DNA from: Nitrospinaceae bacterium
Lineage (GTDB): Bacteria; Nitrospinota; Nitrospinia; Nitrospinales; VA-1
NCBI GenBank assembly: GCA_021604505.1
Contig: BQJC01000002.1
Location: forward strand, 186,001 to 250,000
Direction: 5' to 3'
DNA: 64,000 nt
The first letter of the stretch is position 1. Each line of letters starts with the position of its first letter. The notes under the pieces were generated by a model that had not been told where the DNA came from, searched no databases, and saw only the letters and a program-made list of their open reading frames with translations. Positions 28,544 through 34,381 of this stretch are shown in pieces. Made by a program: the position numbers and the translations under genes.

Positions 28544-29641
28544 TTAATTTGCAAGGCTCCAGGGAAGCAGCACCAGATTGCCGCGCACCTTATTGTCCGC
28601 CAGCAGACGATGAGCCTTAGCCGCTTCCAGCAAAGGAAATACACGGTCGAGTAACGGTCGAATCTTTCCCTGCCGGACAAGCTCCAAACCAAACGTTAAA
28701 TCTTCGATATCGCTGGCCATGGTTCCCCTGATCTGCTTCTGTGTGAAAAACAGATTGCGGATATCAAAGCGAACCTCCGGCCCGGCGGAAAAACCGTAAG
28801 CGACGACCACACCCCCGGCTTTGACGGCGTCAATGCTCTTGGCCATCTCGTCGCCGCCTAGATTATCGATAACCACGTCCACGCCCTTGCCGCCGGTCCA
28901 TTCCTTAACTTGTTCCACCCAATCTTCGCGAGTGGAATCGATCACAAGATCAGCACCTGATTGACGGACAAATTCTGCTTTCGCATCGCCGCGCACCGTA
29001 GCGATGACGCTTGCACCCAGAGCTTTTGCGACCTGAATCAGCATGCTTCCCGAACCGGAGGCGCCCGAACGGACCAGCACCCGGTCGCCTTCTGTTACCT
29101 GGCCAATGCCATGAACGGCGTGAACGCTGGTTGACAGCACCACCGGCAAAGTGGCCGCCTCTTCCGGACTGAACCCGGTGTCGTCCTTTATGAGCCCGTG
29201 TTCGGGAACTTCCATGTAAGAGGTGTAGGTCCCGGCAATGTGAAGACCGGGCAGGGCGAAGCTTGAAGCCCCTATCGTGGGACGGACCTCGGTTTCTTCT
29301 TTTTTTTGCGCGTACCCCGGAACGACGATCACCCGCTCTCCTGGAGAAAATTTTGTGACGTCGTCACCGAGCGCCTCCACCTCGCCCACGGCATCGATGC
29401 CCAATATGTGCGGGAACGGCAACGTCGGAACGATCCCGCCTTCACGGATGTAATGATCCAAACGGTTGATGCCGGCGGCAAGAACCTTGACGAGAACATG
29501 CCCGGGTCGCCGTTCCGGCACTTCCACATCCTCAATTCGAAAAACATCGGGTCCGCCAAATTCGCGAATCACCGCGGCTTTCGCCAGAACCTTTTTCTCC
29601 GGCGTTTGTGTTTTTGAAGTTTCGAGTGTTTGCGTTGTCAT
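28544..29641 (-). CDS. Zinc-independent MDR-family quinone oxidoreductase/enoyl reductase
   Basis: About 365 residues. The GroES-like part has VLVKVLAAGINRLDHYIREGG and PHILGIDAVGEVEALGD. The Rossmann part has VLVRSGASGSGSMLIQVAKALGASVIAT and VDVVIDNLGGDEM. The Cys/His ligands of zinc alcohol dehydrogenases are missing, which points to the NADPH:quinone reductase (crotonase-like MDR) branch. Such enzymes reduce quinones or alpha,beta-unsaturated carbonyls. It has a GGAGGAAG ribosome site and sits 66 bp after the carboxymuconolactone decarboxylase-like gene. Confidence 0.9.
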   Translation of the reverse strand: MTTQTLETSKTQTPEKKVLAKAAVIREFGGPDVFRIEDVEVPERRPGHVLVKVLAAGINRLDHYIREGGIVPTLPFPHILGIDAVGEVEALGDDVTKFSPGERVIVVPGYAQKKEETEVRPTIGASSFALPGLHIAGTYTSYMEVPEHGLIKDDTGFSPEEAATLPVVLSTSVHAVHGIGQVTEGDRVLVRSGASGSGSMLIQVAKALGASVIATVRGDAKAEFVRQSGADLVIDSTREDWVEQVKEWTGGKGVDVVIDNLGGDEMAKSIDAVKAGGVVVAYGFSAGPEVRFDIRNLFFTQKQIRGTMASDIEDLTFGLELVRQGKIRPLLDRVFPLLEAAKAHRLLADNKVRGNLVLLPWSLAN

Positions 29642-29707: not shown

Positions 29708-30253
29708 CTAGTGATCCTCAAGTTTTTTCGCCTTTGGAAAATCGATCACTGTCCCGGCAACGTTGTTGAAATAATTGCTGAATAGGACAAAGACCCCGTT
29801 CGCAATGATTTCAGTGATCGCCTCATCCGTGAACCCCAGATTTTTCAGCCGCTTGATTTCATCGGAAGAGACATTTCCCTTGCTGTCGAGAACTTTCCTG
29901 ACGAAACGAAGCACCGCTTCGGTTTTTCTATCCGGGGATTGCCCCAGGCGGCTGTCCTGAATTTCTTCGTCGGTCAGCCCTGTGCATTTACCCATGGCAC
30001 AACGGGCGGACACGCAATAATCGGCGCCGTTGAACTCCGCGACACACAACGCGATTTTCTGCCGCAAATCAGCCGGAAGAATTCCCCGGTCCAGTGCGTC
30101 CCAGAAATGGATATAAGCCTCAAGCGCCACCGGCGAATTGGCTAACGTGGTCAACATCACCGGAATCATTCCCAGTTGGTTCTCCACCTTCTCAATCAGC
30201 TCTTTGGTTTTTCCAGAGCTTTGTTCGAGCCCGACGGCTTTAATGCGCTGCAT
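29708..30253 (-). CDS. Carboxymuconolactone decarboxylase/AhpD-like protein
   Basis: About 181 residues from ATG 30253 with TTGGAGA just upstream. It has the alkylhydroperoxidase core: ALCVAEFNGADYCVSARC followed by AMGKCTGLTDEEI. Typical relatives read DYCxSAHTxxG; here the His is Arg and the Thr is Cys, so the reactive pair would be CVSARC, CxxxxC rather than CxxC-xxH. A third Cys follows in GKC. First gene of the sigma-54-type operon, about 50 bp from the predicted transcription start. Likely a thiol oxidoreductase for peroxides or electrophiles; this is inference. Confidence 0.88.
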   Translation of the reverse strand: MQRIKAVGLEQSSGKTKELIEKVENQLGMIPVMLTTLANSPVALEAYIHFWDALDRGILPADLRQKIALCVAEFNGADYCVSARCAMGKCTGLTDEEIQDSRLGQSPDRKTEAVLRFVRKVLDSKGNVSSDEIKRLKNLGFTDEAITEIIANGVFVLFSNYFNNVAGTVIDFPKAKKLEDH

Positions 30254-30315: not shown

Positions 30316-30331
30316 AGCAGGTTGCGTGCCA
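30316..30331 (-). promoter_or_regulatory. Sigma-54 (-24/-12) promoter for the CMD operon
   Basis: Read on the minus strand: TGGCACG-CAAC-CTGCT, against the consensus TGGCACG-N4-TTGCW. The GG and GC are 10 bp apart. Transcription should start near 30305, about 50 bp before the CMD ATG. Paired upstream sites are at 30403-30449. Confidence 0.8.
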
Positions 30332-30402
30332 TAACATGGGATGTCGGATAGCTCATTTATTTATAAACATTTACCGCTAAGACAATCATCTTCAGGGTGA
30401 TT

Positions 30403-30449
30403 CGAAATTTCGGATATTTCAATTTTTCAAACTGTTATTCGAGATTTCG
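30403..30449. promoter_or_regulatory. Paired activator sites (UAS) of the CMD operon
   Basis: CGAAATTTCG at 30403-30412 is a perfect palindrome. A second related copy, CGAGATTTCG, is at 30440-30449. The first lies 86 bp from the -12 GC of the left-facing sigma-54 promoter, within the usual distance for enhancer-type activators. TATGAT at 30450-30455 directly follows the second copy and could be a -10 box for the VOC gene. The same arrangement occurs at 32847-32900. Confidence 0.75.
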
Positions 30450-30625
30450 TATGATAGAATTCAGGGTAAAAAACTCGGTCGTCCTCTCCCCTAAGGGGGA
30501 AAGGATTTAGGTCCTGTCTTTCCCAGATGGCGCAAAGCTCTCTAAAAAGAAGCGATGCATCGGAGCGAGGTCGGCGTTATAGTTAAGGAAAAGATCCCCT
30601 GTCGAACCAATGAGGTGATTTGCAA

Positions 30626-31009
30626 ATGACGTTTTCCATTAAAAATTTGGACCATGTGGTTTTGTACGCTTCCGATCTCGAGCGGGCGGTGAAGTTCTAT
30701 TGCGAGGTGCTGGGGTGTCAAGAGGAGAGGCGCGTGGAATCGATCAACATGGTGCAGATGCGGGCGGGCCAATCGCTGATCGACTTGATGCAGAAAGAAT
30801 CCAAATCGAAAGACGGCGGACGAAACATGGACCACTTCGCCCTTCGCATCGACCCGTTTGAAGAAAATGCGTTACGGAACCATCTTGAAAGCCACGGAGT
30901 GAAGGTCAGCGAAGTCGCTTCCCGTTATGGCGCCGAGGGGCAGGGACCCTCCATCTACATTCAAGACCCCGACGGCAACACGGTGGAGTTGAAGGGCCCG
31001 CCTTTTTAG
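30626..31009 (+). CDS. VOC/glyoxalase-superfamily protein
   Basis: About 127 residues from ATG 30626, with GAGGTGA 8 bp upstream. It has the beta-alpha-beta-beta-beta repeats of the vicinal-oxygen-chelate fold: NLDHVVLYASDLERAVKFY, then NMDHFALRIDPFEEN and IYIQDPDGNTVELKGPPF. Metal ligands are probably His in LDHV, His in MDHF and Glu in TVELKG. Related proteins act on thiol adducts, dioxygenase substrates or antibiotics. Position beside the shared operator suggests joint control with the CMD operon. Confidence 0.9.
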   Translation: MTFSIKNLDHVVLYASDLERAVKFYCEVLGCQEERRVESINMVQMRAGQSLIDLMQKESKSKDGGRNMDHFALRIDPFEENALRNHLESHGVKVSEVASRYGAEGQGPSIYIQDPDGNTVELKGPPF

Positions 31010-31262
31010 ATCGTGCAACTCAAACTTTATCCGATAGACAGTGTCATATCTCGAATGACCGGATTCGGGCTTCCGTCAAAAGAGCACACCCCGTTTCCCA
31101 TCAACTCAAGGGCGAACATCTATCATGGATAGTCATACGACTAAGTAAGGCTGGCTTATTGGGTCCACTTTCAGCTGGCGGAAAACAGGATGCGGTGTAT
31201 AAGCTTAATGGTATGCTTAAATTATGTTATGAAATTAAAAACAAATACTGTGGCAGTAAAAA

Positions 31263-31553
31263 ATGAACAACGATAAATGGAACCGGCAGAGCATTCGCAG
31301 GGTTTTGACCCCGGCGGTTTGGGTGATCGGGATTTTATACACCATCCGGTCGCATTTCAACGCGTGCCCGCATGAAGTCATTCTTGGCGGCTGGCTCTTT
31401 GCGCCTGTGGTGTGGCTCATGATTGAAAACTGGTTTCTGTACGAGCCCGGCAAGGACGACTGGGAACAATTTAAAAAATGGCAATGGCACCAGCGCAATT
31501 TATGGGTAGCCACATCCGCCTTCCTCGCAGTGAAATACCTTCCCCTAGCATGA
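31263..31553 (+). CDS. Small membrane protein of unknown function
   Basis: About 96 residues with two predicted hydrophobic helices (LTPAVWVIGILYTI and LGGWLFAPVVWLMIENW) and a basic, Trp-rich loop (DDWEQFKKWQWHQRN). No ribosome site is evident before the ATG, which lowers certainty. It lies between the VOC gene and the convergent hydrolase. Confidence 0.5.
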   Translation: MNNDKWNRQSIRRVLTPAVWVIGILYTIRSHFNACPHEVILGGWLFAPVVWLMIENWFLYEPGKDDWEQFKKWQWHQRNLWVATSAFLAVKYLPLA

Positions 31554-31709
31554 TTCGGCCTTAGCAACATGAACCCCGTCAGGTGAGAATGGACCCATTG
31601 AGTTAAAAAGCTAGGAGATACTGTCTTTAACTTTCCTCATGAATTTAAAAAGCCCAGGCTTTTGCCGGACCTTTTATAAACCACGGACGGACGCTTTTCT
31701 ATGGACACA

Positions 31710-32684
31710 TCATTCGATATTGTTCTTGGCCAGAAATCGAAGAATATGATCAGCAATGGCATCTCCTTCCTCCTCCAACGCAAAGTGGCCGGTATCCAGC
31801 AAATGAAATTCGATGTTCTTTAAATCCTGCTTGTAGGAATGCGCCCCGTCCGCTGGAAAAATATGATCGTTTTTCCCCCAGACGACGAGCGTCGGCGGCT
31901 GATGTTCGCGAAAATAAGCCTGCCACTCAGGGTAAAGAGCCACATTGGTGCGGTAGTCGTAAAACATCGCCAACTGGATGGCGTTGTTCCCGGGCCGAGT
32001 CAAATGTTGCAAATCGATGTTCCAATTATCCGGGCTGATGGTTTCGACATTCTGCACGCCATGCGTGTACTGCCATTTCAATCCGTCCGGGGCATGAAAT
32101 CCTTCCAGGGCCTTGCCGTTTTCTTCCGTGTATTCGTTCCAGTATTTTTTGATAGGGTCCCAGAATTCTCTCAGACCTTCCTCATAAGCGCCGCCGTTTT
32201 GCACGATCAGGGACTCTATGCGCTCAGGATATTTTGCTGCAATGCGGTATCCAATGGGAGCGCCGTAGTCCATCAGGTAGACACTGAACTTCTCTACGTT
32301 TAACGCTTGCAGGAAACCTTCCACGATCTTTGCTATGTTATCGAACGTGTAAGAGAAGTCAGCCATCGGCGGCTGTGCACTCTGGCCAAATCCAGGATAA
32401 TCGGGAGCCAGCAGGTGATAGCGGTGCGATAAATCTTCGATGAGATGGCGGAACATATGCGATGACGTGGGATAGCCGTGCAGTAACAAAAGAGTCGGAG
32501 CATCTTTTCGACCCGCTTCGCGGTAAAATATTTTCACGCCATCGACTTCAATGGTCTTATGAAGCGTGGGATGTTTAGGAACGGGTTCTTCCTTTTTGGC
32601 GGAGGGGGTTCCCGTGATGAAAGCGGCCCCCGCAATCAAAACGGCTATGACGAGCGCCAGCCATTTAGCGGTTAATTTTTTCAT
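31710..32684 (-). CDS. Exported alpha/beta hydrolase, dehalogenase/epoxide-hydrolase type
   Basis: About 324 residues. A signal or membrane anchor (MKKLTAKWLALVIAVLIAG) leads into the fold. Oxyanion-region LLLLHGYPTSSHMFRH and the nucleophile elbow VYLMDYGAPIG with Asp 139 (not Ser) place it with haloalkane dehalogenases and epoxide hydrolases. The acid is in GKNDHIF and the base His 300 in DTGHFALEE. Start supported by AAGGAGAA. A sigma-54 promoter with paired upstream sites lies 80-200 bp upstream, matching the CMD operon. Confidence 0.92.
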   Translation of the reverse strand: MKKLTAKWLALVIAVLIAGAAFITGTPSAKKEEPVPKHPTLHKTIEVDGVKIFYREAGRKDAPTLLLLHGYPTSSHMFRHLIEDLSHRYHLLAPDYPGFGQSAQPPMADFSYTFDNIAKIVEGFLQALNVEKFSVYLMDYGAPIGYRIAAKYPERIESLIVQNGGAYEEGLREFWDPIKKYWNEYTEENGKALEGFHAPDGLKWQYTHGVQNVETISPDNWNIDLQHLTRPGNNAIQLAMFYDYRTNVALYPEWQAYFREHQPPTLVVWGKNDHIFPADGAHSYKQDLKNIEFHLLDTGHFALEEEGDAIADHILRFLAKNNIE

Positions 32685-32760
32685 GATGTTCTCCTTTTAC
32701 GTCTAAAAATGTTTAGGAAACGGGGTTGAAAATTTTTCCCGGCCAAGTGAAACCCTAGAG

Positions 32761-32776
32761 AGCAGTTTCCATGCCA
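32761..32776 (-). promoter_or_regulatory. Sigma-54 (-24/-12) promoter for the hydrolase
   Basis: Minus strand: TGGCATG-GAAA-CTGCT, with GG and GC 10 bp apart. Predicted start near 32750, about 65 bp before the hydrolase ATG. It shares the unusual CTGCT -12 box with the promoter at 30316. Confidence 0.8.
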
Positions 32777-32846
32777 ACAGGAGGGCGTTCGGTAAAGCAT
32801 TGAAATTTAGTGAACTATATTGACATGCAAGTGATATAACGGGATT

Positions 32847-32894
32847 CGAAATTTCGAGAATCATAAAATTTCAATTTTCCTTTGCGATATTTCG
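32847..32894. promoter_or_regulatory. Paired activator sites of the hydrolase, also at the activator's own promoter
   Basis: CGAAATTTCG at 32847-32856 and CGATATTTCG at 32885-32894, 38 bp apart. The first is 85 bp from the -12 GC of the left-facing promoter. The second abuts TATAAT at 32895, the -10 of the rightward activator gene, so binding there would also be expected to affect the activator's own transcription. Confidence 0.75.
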
Positions 32895-32900
32895 TATAAT
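32895..32900 (+). promoter_or_regulatory. Sigma-70 -10 box of the activator gene
   Basis: A perfect TATAAT about 50 bp before ATG 32948. The -35 is poor: TTTCAA or CAATTT at the right distance overlaps the spacer between the two palindromes. A weak -35 fits a promoter that a bound regulator could govern. Confidence 0.5.
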
Positions 32901-32947: not shown

Positions 32948-34381
32948 ATGAAGATGAATTATCCGATCGAGCTCATTCTGACCGCCGCAGGCGAAGGCAT
33001 CTATGGGCTGGATGCTAAAGGATTCATGACTTTCGTGAACCCTGCCGCGGAAAAGATGACCGGTTACACCGCCCGGGAAATGATCGGTGAATGCCAGCAC
33101 AAACTGACCCATCATTCCAAAGACGACGGCACTCCGTATCCGGTTGACGATTGCCCCATCTATGCCGCCTTCAAGGACGGCGCGGTCCACCACGTTTCCA
33201 ACGAAGTATTTTGGCGAAAGGACGGCACCTGCTTTCCGGTGGAATACGTCAGCACGCCCATGTGGGAGAAGGATAAACTGGTGGGCGCGGTTGTGGTGTT
33301 CAAGGATATTTCCGAACGCAAACAGGCGGAGAAAGAAATCCAGCGGCTAAAGAATCAACTGGAATTGGAAAATGCCTACCTCAACGAAGAAGTTTTAGAA
33401 GCCAAGGCCTATGGAGAAATCGTCGGAAGAAGCCCGGCGTTGGGAAACATCCTCGCGCAAATTGAAATGGTGGCTCCCACCAATGCCAGTGTCCTGATCA
33501 CCGGCGAATCCGGAACCGGAAAGGAGCTGGTGGCCCGGGAAATTCACAAACGCAGTCCCAGAAGCGAACGCTCGATGATCAAAGTGAACTGCGCTTCCAT
33601 TCCCAGAGAACTTTACGAGAGCGAGTTTTTCGGCCATGTGAAAGGAGCATTCACGGGCGCGATCAAGAACCGTACCGGCCGCTTTGAACTGGCGCAGGGA
33701 GGAACCCTCTTTCTGGACGAAGTGGGAGAAATTCCGCTCGATCTGCAGAGCAAACTGCTTCGGGTGTTGCAGGAAGGAACGTACGAAAGGGTCGGCGATG
33801 AAAAAACCCTGCACGCGGACGTTCGCGTCATCGCCGCCACCAATCAGAATTTAAAAGAAGACGTACAAGAAAAACGGTTTCGCCAGGACCTGTATTACCG
33901 GTTGAACGTATTTCCCATTGAAGTCCCCGCTCTTAGACAACGAAAAGAAGACATTCCCATGCTGGCTGCCCATTTTATTAAAATCGCCGCGAGGAAGTTG
34001 AACGCCCCGTTGCCCCATCTGACACAGGCCAATGTGCTGGATCTCCAGGAGTACGACTGGCCGGGGAACGTTCGTGAGCTGGTGAACGCTATAGAGCGCG
34101 CGGTGATTGTTTCGCAGGGCGGCAAGGTCCAGTTTGATCTGCCGGACCGCAAAAGTAAAGTTCGTGTAGAGCAAAAAGACTCCGGCAGGCCAAAATCCCC
34201 AGGCACAAGCCGGATACTGACTAAAAGGGACATGCTTGAACAGGAGCGGGAGAACATTCTAAATGCGCTGATTCAATGCAATTGGAAGATCACGGGGCCC
34301 AAAAGCGCGGCGGAGGTTCTGGAAATGAAACCCACCACGCTGTATTCGCGAATCAAAAAACTAGGCATCAAGCAAGATTAG
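32948..34381 (+). CDS. PAS-domain sigma-54-dependent transcriptional activator
   Basis: About 477 residues from ATG 32948 (AAGGGA upstream; an in-frame start at 32906 is less likely). A PAS domain (~5-120) carries [15 protein letters not shown] and is followed by a short coiled coil. The AAA+ domain (~155-390) has Walker A GESGTGKE at ~186, the sigma-54 contact loop GAFTGA at 233-238 and Walker [14 protein letters not shown] Fis-type helix-turn-helix ends the protein ([20 protein letters not shown]). There is no receiver domain, so control is by a ligand or redox signal at the PAS domain. Its likely targets are the two divergent regions at 30.3 and 32.8 kb. Confidence 0.95.

Follow-up and report, generated by a model that had tools for sequence, protein, structure and literature searches.

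The window analyzed here is a 64-kb stretch of the 3.64-Mb genome of a Nitrospinaceae bacterium (GCA_021604505.1, contig BQJC01000002.1, positions 186,001-250,000), and it contains two control regions that share one layout (Table 1). One lies upstream of an operon that begins with a carboxymuconolactone-decarboxylase (CMD)/AhpD-like gene, and the other lies between an alpha/beta-hydrolase gene and the divergent gene 32948, which encodes a predicted sigma-54 activator. In each region a left-facing promoter, with the GG and GC of its -24/-12 elements exactly 10 bp apart, is followed by three site positions spaced by 17 and then 20-21 bp.

Table 1. Positions, within the 64-kb window, of the two control regions and of the genes that adjoin them.
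Feature	Position	Strand	Sequence, basis or comment
Zinc-type quinone/alcohol oxidoreductase, second gene of CMD operon	28544..29641	-	
Carboxymuconolactone-decarboxylase/AhpD-like protein, first gene of second predicted target operon	29708..30253	-	
Sigma-54 -24/-12 promoter, CMD operon	30317..30332	-	TGGCACGCAACCTGCT, TGGCACG-CAAC-CTGCT; sequence; form conserved in orthologs
Enhancer site 1 (predicted), CMD control region	30403..30412	.	CGAAATTTCG; 84 bp past -12 GC
Degenerate middle site, CMD region	30420..30429	.	17 bp from site 1; 6/10 matches; position predicted from orthologous arrays
Enhancer site 3 (predicted), CMD control region	30440..30449	.	CGAGATTTCG; one mismatch; +37 from site 1
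TATGAT, -10-like, directly beside CMD-region site 3	30450..30455	+	Sequence
Alpha/beta hydrolase (haloalkane-dehalogenase/epoxide-hydrolase-like), predicted target	31710..32684	-	Pfam/NCBIfam-type annotation; divergent from activator
Sigma-54 -24/-12 promoter, alpha/beta-hydrolase gene	32762..32777	-	TGGCATGGAAACTGCT, TGGCATG-GAAA-CTGCT
Enhancer site 1 (predicted), hydrolase/activator region	32847..32856	.	CGAAATTTCG; 83 bp past -12 GC
Degenerate middle site, hydrolase/activator region	32864..32873	.	TAAAATTTCA; 17 bp from site 1; 7/10 matches
Enhancer site 3 (predicted), hydrolase/activator region	32885..32894	.	CGATATTTCG; one mismatch; +38 from site 1
TATAAT, candidate -10 of activator gene, directly beside site 3	32895..32900	+	Sequence
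Sigma-54 activator, PAS-AAA+(GAFTGA)-Fis HTH, predicted binder of both arrays	32948..34381	+	Pfam, NCBIfam, alignment

The two promoters, each with a perfect CGAAATTTCG and a related copy 37 or 38 bp further on, had been described in an earlier note on this DNA, and both the sequence and a pattern search bear out that description. The near-fixed distance between promoter and first site also holds, although it amounts to 84 and 83 bp when the count starts at the first base past the -12 GC and runs to site 1, and not to the 86 and 85 bp of the note, which counted from another base. The CTGCT form of the -12 box, held there to be unusual, proved to be ordinary: 7 of the 17 matches to TTGGCAYN5YTGCW in the genome carry CTGC, and GAGCAG (i.e., CTGCTC) is the most frequent form in orthologous promoters. 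A promoter scan found no -35 element for the TATAAT at 32895-32900. Another near-site, TGAAATTTAG, lies at 32801-32810 (+ strand), on the hydrolase-promoter side of site 1 at a distance of 46 bp; among the PWM sites of the window it ranks fifth, and the CMD region lacks it.

In favor of a chance arrangement of AT-rich palindromes, single near-matches with one mismatch turn up in the window about as often as in shuffled sequence (6, compared to 7.8 expected). The spaced pair CGAWATTTCGN20-45CGANATTTCG, however, occurs only twice in the 3.64-Mb genome, both times in the window's control regions, and the reversed control of this pattern gave 0 matches in the same genome, so that the matched spacing is indeed hard to explain by chance, as had been claimed. 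The four top PWM matches of the window are sites 1 and 3 of both control regions, and the site at 32885-32894 scores highest in the 64 kb. A search for such pairs in this genome and its relatives, which had been proposed along with that claim, found the two pairs in the genome, but an exact pattern search of the 63 other genomes of the order gave no match; because the sites diverge between genomes, a profile was needed. A chance arrangement, contradicted by the genome-wide uniqueness of the pair and by the cross-species statistics and ortholog layout given below, is hardly credible.

The product of gene 32948 is a 477-aa protein with a full-length Sigma54_activat domain (PF00158, 7.6e-73), a PAS_9 domain (1.6e-12) and an HTH_8 match that falls slightly below the Pfam cut-off (E 4e-4, 20.5 bits vs. 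22). The GAFTGA loop is intact (alignment A2), and the sequence GAAELL-KPTTLxSRIKK is conserved in the C-terminal HTH of its orthologs. The nearest NCBIfam models are FhlA, PrdR and NorR, and the protein scores below every equivalog cut-off. The genome carries a sigma-54 gene (rpoN), in agreement with the proposed involvement of sigma-54.

Some 22 genomes of the order contain orthologs of the activator (65-74% identical), and the relatives recovered by protein search are Nitrospinota/Nitrospinaceae assemblies. Nearly every ortholog upstream region contains GAGCAG-N5-GTGCCAAA on the + strand, which is a left-facing -24/-12 element, followed after 82-85 bp by site 1. The arrays of the orthologs comprise three sites with the consensus WACGAAATTTCGTW; the distance between sites 1 and 2 is always 17 bp, and that between sites 2 and 3 is 21 or 31 bp, the shift between clades being one helical turn. 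Because the ortholog array has three parts, the pair separated by 37 or 38 bp in the window corresponds to sites 1 and 3 (17 + 20/21 bp). The sites that had been called paired are therefore real as the outer two, but the ortholog arrays reveal a third, middle position that is degenerate in the window.

These comparisons were assessed with only the 10-bp word of the earlier note, in 23 homologous 400-bp upstream regions from which the motif-giving window had been left out. Near-sites with at most 2 mismatches numbered 55, compared to 8.8 expected and a maximum of 16 in 200 shuffles. The distances between sites were concentrated at 17 bp (14 times), 38 bp (6 times) and 48 bp (6 times), compared to a null maximum of 2, and the promoter pattern GCN7RTGCCA was present in 22 of the 23 regions (null mean 0.11). 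On visual inspection, the segment that separates promoter from array seemed to contain a conserved inverted repeat, TAAC...GTTA, but the best repeats were no better than those in shuffled sequence and the candidate was rejected. Between promoter and array the orthologs have an AT-rich stretch with a positionally conserved TAA...TTA (alignment A1 columns 39-66), which in the window falls at 30336-30390 and 32781-32835; it does not form a significant inverted repeat and could be a bending site.

The proposal that one enhancer-type activator, the product of gene 32948, serves both regions is supported by this phylogenetic footprinting. In nearly all Nitrospinota genomes with an ortholog of the activator, the array lies directly upstream of that ortholog; the array is also found upstream of more distant homologs, in which the class of recognition helix varies with the sequence of the sites; and the rare arrays without an activator gene front gene types that are controlled by the activator elsewhere. 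Judged from sequence, both regions are very probably sigma-54 promoters with enhancer arrays to which the PAS-AAA+-Fis activator 32948 would bind.

The array geometry extends beyond the orthologs. Of 56 loci with more distant homologs (L057-L112), 42 outscored every one of 160 reversed controls on a composite promoter-plus-array score that was trained mainly on Nitrospinota and is circular for the training loci. According to record titles these loci belong to Nitrospirota, Planctomycetota, Deltaproteobacteria, Verrucomicrobia, Latescibacterota and Gammaproteobacteria; since titles of MAGs can be wrong, this breadth rests on many records and not on any single one. Activators whose recognition helix XPTTL has K or R as X are accompanied by ACGA half-sites (fourth-position G, 0.79/0.69), and those with P by ACT-type half-sites (G 0.37, T 0.61). 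The matrix that located the sites had been trained for the most part on K-class sequences, so that these values are partly PWM-guided. The covariation is suggestive of a half-site that tracks the activator's own HTH class, as far as phylogenetically non-independent sequences can indicate. Since the layout recurs beside relatives of the activator in several phyla, it looks like a genuine, conserved switch that serves small operons for stress response or detoxification.

The same observations bear on the binder. Perfect palindromes are typically used by many dimeric regulators, and site 3 abuts the -10 of the divergent gene, both of which would suit an unlinked repressor, or some other factor, that uses the sites as operators, with the sigma-54 promoter being incidental. 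The constant promoter-array spacing (82-85 bp), the way in which the array follows a sigma-54 activator family across phyla, and the apparent tracking of the activator's own HTH by the half-site make such a factor quite improbable. The same genome also encodes a paralogous activator (G000:C1:639879-641063), which is 66% identical over AAA+ and HTH, and the window's arrays might be bound by this paralog or by both proteins as a shared regulon. In favor of this, the HTH core of the paralog (RPTTLISRIKK) is the same, and the paralog has a related variant array of its own (L151, G000:C1:639879-641496; TACTAATATTCGTA, TGCTAATTTTAGTA, TACCAAATTTCGTA; E 1.5e-8). The two window arrays, however, which both contain ATTCGAAATTTCG, are more alike than either is to that array. 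One of them also adjoins gene 32948, and orthologs keep array and gene together. Binding by the paralog is thus unlikely as the explanation of the window's arrays, although it could engage in cross-talk there.

The likeness of the two regions could also reflect shared ancestry without function, the second being a neutral duplicate of the first. Both regions keep the 14-bp GATTCGAAATTTCG, as well as TTTCGTATRATA beyond site 3, as a duplicate would. The 66 bp that separate promoter and sites, in contrast, are not significantly similar (35% ungapped, p about 0.1) even though promoter and sites match, and the layout is conserved in other species. A neutral duplicate is accordingly very improbable, and we retain the reading of both regions as probable targets of activator 32948.

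To locate arrays elsewhere, a sequence profile of the whole control region was run on 64 and 77 genomes; low model scores (about 20-25 bits) mostly matched the promoter half alone and were not counted as arrays. Strong profile matches lay almost only directly upstream of the activator or its close paralogs. Away from any activator gene there were only the window's CMD array and one array each in two other genomes (G001 and G007), both of which front isochorismatase plus old-yellow-enzyme genes, and isochorismatase is an activator-adjacent target elsewhere. Beside the G001 array is a frame with internal stops that is 60% identical to the N-terminus of the activator (E 9e-25), and a shorter stretch of relic activator sequence lies beside the G007 array (E 9e-5). 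The remnants of the activator gene by these standalone arrays, both in Nitrospinota, occupy L143:4056-4292 (with stops) and L144:4248-4358.

The relics beside the G001 and G007 arrays indicate that orphan arrays can arise from array-activator cassettes in which the activator has decayed, and standalone arrays most likely arise by copying of the cassette followed by decay of the local activator gene. The window's own CMD array may have originated in the same way. No activator relic above noise was found beside it. The TATGAT adjoining its site 3, the counterpart of the TATAAT in the same place at the activator gene, is possibly a relic of an activator-side promoter; a sigma-70-like scan at 30450-30455 gave a weak match that was no better than those in shuffles.

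We propose a mechanism in which the three inverted-repeat sites (WACGAAATTTCGTW), the middle one being weak in the window, would dock three Fis-type dimers, and the docked dimers would seed a single AAA+ hexamer at a constant distance of 83-84 bp from the -12 element. A signal perceived by the PAS domain would free the hexamer, which could then contact sigma-54 through GAFTGA and open the promoter. One activator would in this way drive the adjoining hydrolase gene and, in trans, the CMD/quinone-reductase operon. Occupancy of site 3 probably limits the activator's own expression as well, and the contact between site 3 and the activator's TATAAT -10 suggests such autoregulation. For NorR, all three enhancer sites are indispensable and provide the scaffold on which a higher-order oligomer assembles (PMC2941729, PMC4987338), and the proposal of three dimers and a hexamer draws on this analogy. 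In the window, both arrays have a weak middle site (6/10 and 7/10 matches), and for this reason the bound complex there may consist of two dimers only.

NorR and norVW of E. coli resemble the present system in that the sigma-54 activator gene is divergent from its target and three inverted-repeat enhancer sites serve one sigma-54 promoter; the orthologs of 32948 likewise have three sites, with the middle one degenerate in the window. The systems differ in that NorR senses NO with an iron-bearing GAF domain and recognizes GT-N7-AC sites, whereas 32948 has a PAS sensor and its arrays, which lack GT-N7-AC sites, have the consensus WACGAAATTTCGTW. The norVW promoter is about 68 bp from its sites, compared to 82-85 bp here, and the NorR sites of E. 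coli K-12 are 21 and 24 bp apart as measured in this analysis, compared to 17 + 21/31 bp. The NorR model gives 371.6 bits against an equivalog cut-off of 476.

FhlA of E. coli/Salmonella is the best NCBIfam match of the AAA+ and HTH of 32948, but the score of 377 bits is far below the equivalog cut-off of 830. The published FhlA site, CATTTCGTACGAAATG (PMC4987338), has the same TTTCG/CGAAA half-sites in the opposite order (CGAAA.TTTCG). FhlA has a sensor of its own where 32948 has PAS, and it controls formate hydrogenlyase genes, whereas the predicted targets of 32948 are the hydrolase and the CMD/quinone reductase. That FhlA sites might be the same type of array was considered and rejected, as the E. 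coli hyc/hyp, hydN and fdhF regions show no array matches. PAS-AAA+-Fis one-component activators with reconstructed regulons have been described in Desulfovibrio and Clostridiales (PMC4641369, PMC6615313), and these are alike in domain order, in the comparative logic applied to them, in the position of the activator beside a sigma-54 target and in having small regulons of one to four operons. Neither CGAAA nor TTTCG is mentioned in the main text of these two papers, nor, as far as they were searched, is a rigid three-site geometry described in them. Literal CGAAATTTCG gave only unrelated matches in the literature, and no description of the motif or of the activator family was found in the main text of the openly accessible papers searched. 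A sigma-54 activator with an enhancer array is a known type, and the unusually conserved geometry sets the system of the window apart.

Enhancers of sigma-54 promoters are usually pictured as flexible in position, and Nitrospinota are an environmentally major phylum that is hard to culture. A site, predicted targets and a likely assembly geometry are now assigned to a sigma-54 activator family. As a broader reading, which we put forward only tentatively, the family may be widespread and use a fixed-geometry three-dimer 'enhanceosome' (17 + 21/31 bp; 82-85 bp to the promoter), with a regulon that grows by cassette copying and activator decay to leave orphan arrays run in trans. The fixed spacing and the jump of one helical turn between clades provide a natural test of sigma-54 enhancer mobility, and the relic activator genes by orphan arrays represent a concrete route of regulon expansion.

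The enzymes encoded under such arrays include CMD/AhpD-like proteins, quinone/alcohol reductase, SDR, isochorismatase-like proteins and old yellow enzyme, as well as glyoxalase-like, DsrE-like and PNPOx-like proteins and hydrolase, and this set suggests a response to reactive small organic compounds. The PAS signature HH-x3-DG-x7-CPI (H55, H56, D60, G61, C69 and P70 in 32948) is kept in 14 of 15 aligned activators and is lost in a paralog clade (L070); it is possibly a redox or metal sensing motif. In Cellvibrio mixtus (L058:5165-5644) and a gammaproteobacterial MAG (L057) the gene faced by the array and promoter encodes a cyanase (cyanate hydratase), and the activator family may for that reason control cyanate use there.
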